Source: Thermothelomyces thermophilus ATCC 42464
Lineage: Eukaryota; Ascomycota; Sordariomycetes; Sordariales; Chaetomiaceae
Length of the DNA stretch: 64,000 nucleotides
Direction of reading: 5' to 3'
Assembly (NCBI RefSeq): GCF_000226095.1
Contig: NC_016473.1
Coordinates: forward strand, 4,650,001 to 4,714,000
Shown here one piece after another: positions 36,428-50,268 of this stretch (the first letter of the stretch is position 1; each line of letters opens with the position of its first letter). The position numbers and the translations under genes are program-made. Under the pieces are notes generated by a model. It saw nothing but the letters and a program-made list of their open reading frames with translations. It was not told the origin of the DNA and did no database searches.

Positions 36428-37750
36428 TAGTAGGCTTTCGAATCGAATCACGAAGAAAGAGGGAGAGACATAGGGTTAGGGAAGGGGGACGACGCTGGGT
36501 TTTCTGGTCTTTGTTACGTTACTGGGTGGTGTGGCGACTGGTTGTCGCCGCTTGTTTGTTTGTTTGTTTTCTGTTTGGTTTAGTTTGGTTTTGATTCTTG
36601 TGGGCTGGCTCGGCTTTTTTTTTTTTCTTGGAGAATGGCGGAAGCCGAGGTCGCGGCAGTAGTGTGAGCAGCTTTTGTTGCTCACTAACCTTTTTTTTAG
36701 TGCGAGAGAGGGAGTAGTTGGTTAGTTTCAAGGCGTTCCAAGGCGTTGGGTTACTATTCTTCCACCACTACCACCACTACCACTATCACCACCACCATCA
36801 CCACCACCACCATCATCATCCGCGTGAATTTCTCTCTTAAGTTTGGTTACTCATTTGGCTGCCTTTTTTTTTTTTTTTTTTTTTTTTGGTTGGCGTCATT
36901 TTACTCCGTGTTCTCGGACCAACATGATGCGGTCCTCCCCTAAGCCGGTTTCTCTTATACAAAGCACCTCCTACTATCTTGAACCTGCGTTGCCGGGCTT
37001 CCTCCCAGCATAGAGTCGGTCTCTGGCTGAGAGGGCTTGAGGGTTGGGAAGTGTTTATATAAATGTAAAGTTTTGCCCCGCCCTGTGTTTTCTCATTTCC
37101 TCGGTTTTCCTGTCGTGTTGAACCATTCGGTTGGACCGGTTACCGGCTCAGGACATAACCCCTTCCCCCCCTTTTCAGTGGTTTGCGGAGCGAAAGCCAT
37201 GGCCGTTCAACCGTTCACTCTGTACTCCCCTTGTCGTTAATTGTAGTGATTCAATAAGGACAAATATTTTACAACACTCTCTCCTGGATAACAGTGTTCG
37301 GTGAGATTGCCATTGCATGCCCTGTTATTCATTTGCGGGGCTCCATTTAGACCGTAACACTTTGCATTTTGGCCCCCCGAGCTTAAACTGATCATGTTGT
37401 AATTTCGTACATACATGTGGACACTGCGTCTCCGCGACGAGAGAGATAAGTGAAACCTGGGGAAAGAACGCAGCGGCTTGGCTCGGTCCACGGCGGGGTT
37501 CAGCTCAAAACCCCCCCTCCTTCTTTAACTCACTCGGTGCTGTAAGTTCTCATCGAGCGATTGAGAGGATTCACACGATAAACATCTACAGCTTACATAA
37601 CAACAACGACAATAACAGCAACAACAAAAACAGCGGCGGCAGCAGAAGCGGCGGCGGCGGCGGCAGAGTCAATAATTTGTAAAACATCAAACCATCCATA
37701 AGCCGACCGCACTCATTTTCCTATTATCGACTCTCTCATCATCGCACACC
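36428..37750. other. Intergenic region upstream of the PhyH gene
   Basis: No gene seen. It contains a telobox-like TAGGGTTAGGGA at 36471-36482, an imperfect ACC/ATC trinucleotide tract (about 36761-36829), a T run of about 23 (36864-36886) and a CAA/CGG-rich tract (about 37600-37668) in the probable leader of the next gene. Confidence 0.6.
36761..36829. repeat. Imperfect ACC/ATC trinucleotide tract
   Basis: A run of CCACTACCACCACTACC-like units ending in CATCATCATC, with one strand pyrimidine-biased. Non-coding by position. Confidence 0.8.
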
Positions 37751-48611: not shown

Positions 48612-50268
48612 ATGTCACAGTCCACCAGTAACAAGAACGACTCTCACTCCGGGCCTAGCCAGTTGAGCTCGATTGAGTCTTTAGTCGCAACTCGTAACGA
48701 TGGGAAAAAACACCTTCTCCTAGCGTATGCTCCAACTCACGGATACTGTCGATGCTTCGTTTCGAAAAGCTCTCCTGACATCCGAATCCAGGGCATCGGG
48801 CTCCGTGGCCACTATCAAGCGCGAGTTTCTGACAAATACCTCGTTGCAAGGAAGGACCGGCATCCTAACCTACCTGCCAAAACAGTTCCCGTCATTATCA
48901 ATGCCCTGGCCAAGTACGAGGGCGTTCTCTCGATCCGCATCGTCCTGACCGAATCAGCCACGCACTTCCTTGCCGGCCAGAACTCCGAACAACCCACCGT
49001 CGCCTCGCTGCTGGAGCTGCCCAATGTCGAAGCGGTCTATCGAGATCATGACGAGTGGGGTCCTCAGTCGTGGCGGCGGGGCGCCAGTATCTTGCATATC
49101 GAGTCTGTCGCCTGCTCCTCTCTTAGTTGGGTCTTTTTCGAGTTGGGGATGAGAGGCTGACCGACGTGACGCCCGGGCTAAGATTGCGCAGATGTACGTG
49201 GTGAACCCCGAACGGGAGGATGGAACACCGCTTGATTGCTGACGATGGCATGTAATGAACAGGGGCCGATCTGCTCGTGGTGGCACGTATGTCGTCTCAA
49301 GAACTTCCTTGCTGAGAAACAGACAGCTAGCTAACCGTCAACAGCACTCAGTGCGAACACGTTGGCTAAGGTCCGCATTCCACCACACACACTACGCTCG
49401 GCGAAGTGATGACGGTCGACAAACCTCGTCGCGGTGCTAACAAACTCCCGTCCTACAGGTGGTCAACGGCATGTCCGACAATCTGCTCACCTCCGTCATC
49501 CGCGCGTGGGACACCGACAGCAGCATCGACATGAAAAAGAAGCTCATCCTCGTCGCTCCAGCCATGAACTCGGTATGTTTCACCCCTGGCCCCCCCTTCT
49601 CGTAACGAACACAACGCCCTTACCAGACCTACGCCAGGCTATGTGGAGACACCCCATAACTGCGAAGCAGATCCGCGTGCTCAAAGAAGACTGGGGCGTC
49701 AAGGAGGAACCGGAATCCGGCGTTGGTGACTCGCTCTCTAATATTGGGTGGTTCAAGGTTATCACGGTGAGCATCCCCTTCTAACGTGTCGTCTTTCTGC
49801 AGAGACGCCTGGCTAACACTCCGAAAAACAGCCAATCAGCAAGTACGTCCGCTGCCGCCGCGGTGTTTACGTAGTCCAAAGGACCCCTCCTGACTGGCTA
49901 ACCTTGGTGCTTCCTACAGAACACTTGCATGCGGCGACACTGGAGGTACGCCTTGCCCTTCGAACCTCTCCGCCGGCCCCCTTCCCCAAACCCCAAACTC
50001 CTCCCCCTTGTGTGGGAACACCTCCACGTCGATTTGCTAACTAACCCATTTCGCCCCAGACGGTCAGTAAACAAAACTTCATCATGTCACAGGCCGCTCG
50101 CAGATGACAGATGCCCACCTTTCCCGATCCGTCGACCGTCCAAATCAATCTTTCTACCACACGGCGGCGGGTGACAAAAGGACTCATTAAGCTAACCCTC
50201 TCTACGCAGGCGCCATGGCATCGGTCGAGACCATTTGCGAGGAGATCGAGCAGAGTCTGGGGCTTTGA
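48612..50268 (+). CDS. Phosphopantothenoylcysteine decarboxylase (HAL3/Cab3-type flavoprotein), 12 exons
   Basis: FMN enzyme of coenzyme A synthesis that decarboxylates 4'-phosphopantothenoylcysteine. Proposed exons: 48612-48724, 48792-48820, 48886-49102, 49173... corrected by signals to 49183-49193, then 49263-49286, 49345-49370, 49459-49572, 49638-49766, 49830-49840, 49920-49945, 50060-50062 and 50210-50268. They sum to 762 nt (253 residues), every junction in frame. Seen after joining: GKKHLLLAASGSVATIKLP, the DEWGP block, active-site His in ILHIELRRWADLLVVAP (H118), SANTLAKVVNGMSDNLL, the PAMNSAMW motif (from 174), and LACGDTGDGAMA with the flap Cys C229. The protein is the length of a simple single-domain decarboxylase, without the long acidic tails of yeast Sis2/Vhs3. 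Exon 2's intron (48821-48885) begins GC rather than GT. The enzyme call is firm; the smallest exons rest on frame, splice signals and family motifs. Confidence 0.9.
49183..49193 (+). other. 11-nt microexon (exon 4) of the decarboxylase gene
   Basis: Follows CTAAG and precedes the strong donor GTACGT. With its neighbours it encodes E-L-R-R and the first base of W in HIELRRWADLL, a highly conserved stretch of the family, so skipping it would break frame and motif. Confidence 0.8.
49830..49840 (+). other. 11-nt microexon (exon 9) of the decarboxylase gene
   Basis: Lies between AAAAACAG and the donor GTACGT and encodes P-I-S plus two bases of K, giving VITPISKTLACGD. The flanking introns are 49767-49829 and 49841-49919. 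Confidence 0.78.
50060..50062 (+). other. Candidate 3-nt microexon (exon 11) of the decarboxylase gene
   Basis: The three bases ACG sit between a full acceptor (CTAACTAAC branch point, then CGCCCCAG) and a donor GTCAGT. They add one residue, turning GDTGGAMA into GDTGDGAMA, which restores the family pattern CGDxGxGAM. The next intron has its own CTAAC branch point and CGCAG acceptor. Confidence 0.65.

Follow-up and report, generated by a model that had tools for sequence, protein, structure and literature searches.

Exons of 3 nt have been reported in animals, in mouse Ncam and Drosophila TnT (as cited in PMC8042270), and exons of a single nucleotide in the plant genes APC11 and VPS55 (PMC4674806, PMC8831610). 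Sequential removal of the introns has been suggested for the single-nucleotide exon of Arabidopsis APC11 (PMC4674806); that paper also cites a case in potato invertase, where a 9-nt exon is spliced in two steps and the second intron is removed first. In fungi, microexons down to 6 bp occur in P450 genes of P. chrysosporium (PMC1184071), a 15-nt exon is found in A. niger rtnA (PMC6616335) and a further microexon is described in Trichoderma Xlr2 (PMC11121469). Thus 3-nt exons are already known from animals and 1-nt exons from plants, and the shortest fungal exon that we found, in the available parts of these sources, is 6 bp. The open-licence literature yielded no fungal 3-nt exon (most subscription papers fall outside this scope, and absence is not proven).

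The window analyzed here is a stretch of 64,000 nucleotides from Thermothelomyces thermophilus ATCC 42464, to which all coordinates refer unless a locus is named. Within a predicted phosphopantothenoylcysteine decarboxylase (PPCDC) gene of this window we identify the three bases ACG as a candidate exon, and we put at roughly 0.9 the probability that they form a 3-nt and probably constitutive exon of a predicted, functional PPCDC gene. On the evidence of the protein family, ACG is very probably present in the mature mRNA. As in Ncam and TnT, one residue is added or omitted and the frame is kept; the animal microexons, however, belong to neural and muscle genes, and the one in TnT is skipped in some muscles, whereas the ACG exon is part of a short-intron metabolic gene of a fungus and, unlike the TnT microexon, would probably be constitutive. 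With the plant 1-nt exons it shares the character of an ultra-short coding exon that is needed for the normal protein and overlooked by annotation, and for those exons intron definition with successive removal has been proposed, as we propose for ACG; omission of the plant exons shifts the frame, which omission of ACG does not, and the plant exons are proven by RNA whereas the ACG exon is predicted from sequence. The fungal microexons cited above are likewise small internal coding exons, but none of those described in the available parts of the three papers (PMC1184071, PMC6616335, PMC11121469) is as short as 3 nt.

The predicted decarboxylase gene and its splice signals

The product of the rebuilt gene (48612 to 50268, forward strand; 12 exons, 253 residues) is a predicted HAL3-type PPCDC. 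Its flavoprotein domain matches PF02441 at 107.8 bits, against a cut-off of 22.7; TIGR00521 and TIGR02113 also match the product, yet below their equivalog cut-offs, and its best relatives in the PDB are 1qzu and 1e20. The catalytic His and the PxMNxxMW motif are present as LHIELRRW and PAMNSAMW, aligned with those of Arabidopsis HAL3a, and the catalytic Cys loop C-x-D-x-G-x-G is obtained only with ACG included (the roles of the His, PxMNxxMW and the Cys in PPCDC are described in PMC9604783). Introns 1 to 9 measure 58 to 88 nt; the longest two of the gene are introns 10 and 11, and their length counts against the ACG exon. The features of the gene are as follows.

48612 to 48724, forward strand: exon 1, 113 nt, with the start codon at 48612
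48792 to 48820, forward strand: exon 2, 29 nt; the intron after it is an apparent GC-AG intron
48886 to 49102, forward strand: exon 3, 217 nt
49183 to 49193, forward strand: exon 4, an 11-nt microexon that completes HIELRRWAD
49263 to 49286, forward strand: exon 5, 24 nt
49345 to 49370, forward strand: exon 6, 26 nt
49459 to 49572, forward strand: exon 7, 114 nt, carrying the PAMNS part of the PxMNxxMW motif
49638 to 49766, forward strand: exon 8, 129 nt, first residues AMW
49832 to 49842, forward strand: exon 9, an 11-nt microexon, PISK
49920 to 49945, forward strand: exon 10, 26 nt, coding for TLACGDTG, the catalytic-Cys segment
49946 to 50059, forward strand: intron 10, 114 nt, GTACGC...CTAACTAAC...CAG, as read from the sequence
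50060 to 50062, forward strand: exon 11, ACG, the predicted 3-nt microexon, with phase 1 at either end
50063 to 50209, forward strand: intron 11, 147 nt, GTCAGT...CTAAC...CAG, as read from the sequence
50210 to 50268, forward strand: exon 12, 59 nt, the last coding exon, including the stop; GAMASVETICEEIEQSLGL; matches the family

The original prediction had ended exon 10 at 49945, begun the last exon at 50210 and held that a direct join of the two keeps the frame at the cost of one residue. Both coordinates are borne out in the sequence, and the direct join, which is in frame, reads LACGDTGGAMA and falls short by exactly one residue (252 versus 253 amino acids). ACG had been placed between an acceptor with its branch site (the latter CTAACTAAC, the former CCCCAG) and the donor GTCAGT, and this is what we find; its inclusion divides the 264-nt gap, also as proposed, into one intron of 114 nt and one of 147 nt, both of which have a CTAAC, and adds the expected Asp to the catalytic-cysteine loop, which then reads LACGDTGDGAMA. 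Exon 10 ends in GGAG, and the inserted codon must therefore start with G; exon 11 completes GAC (Asp) and then supplies the first base of GGC (Gly).

ACG is the sole instance of AG-NNN-GT in the gap and forms a very short candidate exon (3 nt) between two canonical GT-AG introns with branch sites. From the branch A to the 3' splice site the distance is 15 or 19 nt in intron 10 and 14 nt in intron 11. A small matrix built from introns 1 to 9 gives low scores to the acceptors of introns 10 and 11 (2.08 and 1.46, within a leave-one-out range of -7.16 to 6.58), a point against the ACG exon; in its favor, the donor of intron 11, at 7.05 bits, is among the stronger donors of the gene (leave-one-out range 0.97 to 8.38).

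Competing readings of the gap

We enumerated every GT/GC-AG model across the gap with introns no shorter than 40 nt and a middle exon of up to about 60 nt. The motif CGDxGxG[AG]M is restored by one of 1,226 two-intron models, which is the ACG exon, and by none of the 155 one-intron models, so that the splice model put forward originally is the only enumerated GT/GC-AG arrangement that restores the loop. This also rejects the idea that the residue is gained without a microexon, through a donor (GT or GC) or an acceptor at a shifted position (0 of the 155 one-intron models).

Exon 11 might instead be a regulated cassette, whose inclusion gives an active enzyme and whose skipping gives an impaired one that is one residue shorter. 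We regard this as unlikely, although skipping would be frame-neutral (252 amino acids), the residue sits in the catalytic Cys loop, and condition-dependent inclusion is reported for the Trichoderma Xlr2 microexon (PMC11121469): the sequence carries no sign of regulation, both introns having full signals and the folding z-score being 0.47. Were it correct, the fungus would tune its synthesis of coenzyme A by including or skipping three bases.

That a single 264-nt intron (49946 to 50209) is removed, that ACG is a chance match and that the enzyme is truly one residue shorter in its loop is a reading that we consider quite unlikely. It has in its favor that the direct join is in frame and uses standard sites, and its chance element can be quantified. 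The bare pattern AG-NNN-GT carries no weight and is not significant: it was counted 1,685 times in a background of 400,000 strand-bases from this genome, which makes about 1.1 per 264 nt, and is present in 51,455 of 200,000 simulated gaps, generated as first-order Markov versions of the 264-nt gap. The full set of signals (CTRAY branch, YAG, 3 nt, GTNNGY donor), on the other hand, occurs once in the 400,000 background strand-bases and in 209 of the 200,000 simulated gaps, or about 0.1% per gap, and in 42 of the 200,000 when the third base must be G (the next codon being Gly). In the 128,000 strand-bases of the window it occurs four times, the ACG site counted. The other three sites are at 36718, 49840 and 61933; the one at 49840 reuses genuine signals of exon 9, and those at 36718 and 61933 (forward strand) may well be due to chance. 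Length also argues against a single intron, since 264 nt is three times the length of any of introns 1 to 9.

Homologues also bear on a shorter loop. A two-row alignment served as the query against prokaryote genomes and viral contigs, and the peptide patterns derived for the search did not cover the loop. This search gave 35 homologous loci, 34 from genome_contigs and one from IMG/VR (two of the loci, L027 and L029, do not differ over the printed stretch). All 35 of these close homologues carry LAC-x-[D/Q]-x-G-x-G and none has the shorter form, so that the family's need for the longer spacing, on which the original prediction relied, holds throughout this set. The IMG/VR locus (L043 1501-2022, on a 213 kb contig classed as viral) is itself a HAL3-type PPCDC relative with the loop LACGQCGIGAMA, in which a Gln occupies the place of the Asp found in the other 34 loci.

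A wider sample was drawn by seeking TIGR00521 in 59 genomes of one phylum, from which 30 loci were read, 28 of them readable by script. In a comparison by eye of these 28 CoaBC tails, 27 show the spacing of the longer loop, although some of them lack the Cys, and none is shorter, and the script's strict expression matched 17 CoaBC loci and found no short form. The remaining readable locus, the CoaBC-type L091, has a loop one residue longer than that of the other 27 (LACRDEEGPGRM). Among proteins of known structure, the HAL3-type PPCDC chains 1e20 (Arabidopsis HAL3a), 1qzu (human) and 6eoa have the same longer loop spacing, and their His, PxMNxxMW and Cys-loop spacing are identical to those of the predicted product given ACG, with Asp at the inserted column here versus Asn (1e20), Leu (1qzu) and Pro (6eoa). 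We take 6eoa to be the Hal3 of Cryptococcus.

The identity of the residue is a point on the side of the single intron: Asp stands at the inserted column in none of the 35 close homologues (V in 12, I in 7, M in 7, L in 6, and T, A and P in one each). The readable CoaBC loci do include acidic residues at this column, with Asp in one and Glu in two of the 28. Given these counts, and the Asn in Arabidopsis, it is the spacing and not the identity of the residue that supports the ACG exon.

Profile and alignment scores bear on the same alternative. PF02441 is indifferent to the form, scoring both equally at 107.8 bits, and in 8 of 12 PDB matches and 5 of 7 NCBIfam matches the two forms differ by at most 0.1 bit. 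Inclusion of the residue raises the BLASTP score by 3 to 4 bits against 35 of 35 homologues, the TIGR00521 score from 94.2 to 102.1 bits (+7.9) and the TIGR02113 score from 96.3 to 103.5 bits (+7.2), and with phmmer the gain is 4.4 bits for 1qzu, 6.0 for 1e20, 5.9 for 1mvl and 1.7 for 6eoa.

Retention of intron 11, with a protein of 236 amino acids ending LACGDTGDGQ, seems very improbable to us; such a truncated form would likewise have G-D-G, but exon 12 fits the family past the loop and was matched on its own, if weakly (E 0.0043), in the genome protein search, and the signals of intron 11 are complete. Finally, stwintrons (one intron nested in the splice site of another) are known in filamentous ascomycetes (PMC5639578, PMC6616335), but removal of the gap as a stwintron, in two steps with no base left, would yield the short loop that is absent from the 35 homologues, and we give this reading almost no credence.

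Proposed order of splicing

For the ACG exon the most likely mechanism, as we infer it, is intron definition with successive removal of introns 10 and 11; intron definition is stated for ascomycetes in PMC6616335, and short introns that carry their own signals, like those of this gene, are what it would predict. Each flanking intron would be recognized alone, by a pairing between the donor and the branch site and acceptor of that intron. Two splice sites, one 3' and one 5', that are 3 nt apart could hardly be occupied together, so that removal would be sequential, the order and efficiency of the two excisions being part of the proposal, and the second reaction would take its exonic context from the newly joined neighboring exon. 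Pairing of the nearest sites (114 and 147 nt) in preference to those of the 264-nt span would favor inclusion of ACG. The original prediction had also spoken of recursive splicing, a term that applies loosely, in the sense of one intron after another; it does not apply in the sense of a zero-length site, since a search of the 264-nt gap for AG abutting GT found none.

We rejected an RNA structure that brings the splice sites together, the folding of the region being ordinary (z-score 0.47, no excess), and an origin of the microexon by intron duplication, introns 10 and 11 showing no detectable similarity (their local score of 33.0 was reached in 165 of 500 shuffles). A search of the genome with each of the two introns, at E values up to 10, gave no further match.

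With such a 3-nt exon, a fungus with short introns would provide a small, naturally occurring test case for the way in which intron definition allows both of two splice sites to be used when they are separated by 3 nt. It would also exemplify a quiet type of annotation error, in which an exon is omitted, the frame stays intact and the protein loses one residue of an active-site loop.

A probable paralogue and the other short exons

Two related genes are described in Neurospora crassa (PMC9604783). Our protein search of the genome (38,744,216 bases in seven contigs) found one other relative, on contig C4 near 2325200 and without the CGD loop. This locus (L002 1390-3189) has an open frame of 599 residues with a PF02441 domain and a long C-terminal extension, and it is probably a non-catalytic Hal3-like paralogue. 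The C4 relative being without the CGD loop, no candidate with the catalytic Cys was detected other than the PPCDC gene of the window. Introns are ignored by this search, which reads exons, and the window gene was itself missed with PF02441, so that another split copy could escape detection.

The gene contains further ultra-short exons, two of 11 nt and four of 24 to 29 nt, which counts in favor of the ACG exon, and it would therefore suit experiments on the order of splicing. Of the 210 two-intron models at exon 4, 2 pass a loose filter, as does 1 of the 52 one-intron models; only ATTGCGCAGAT yields HIELRRWAD, which matches Arabidopsis, and the one-intron model that passes reads HIESVAWAD. At exon 9 the filter is passed by 20 of 401 two-intron models and by none of 65 one-intron models, and ITPISK was chosen among the 20 by its likeness to homologues (PISK is found in homologous loci as well). 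Two other introns of the gene are of note: intron 2 (48821 to 48885) is an apparent GC-AG intron with the donor GCGAGT, and intron 3, which ends before exon 4 (region 49103 to 49193), has the unusual acceptor AAG, with the lowest acceptor score in the gene (-7.16).
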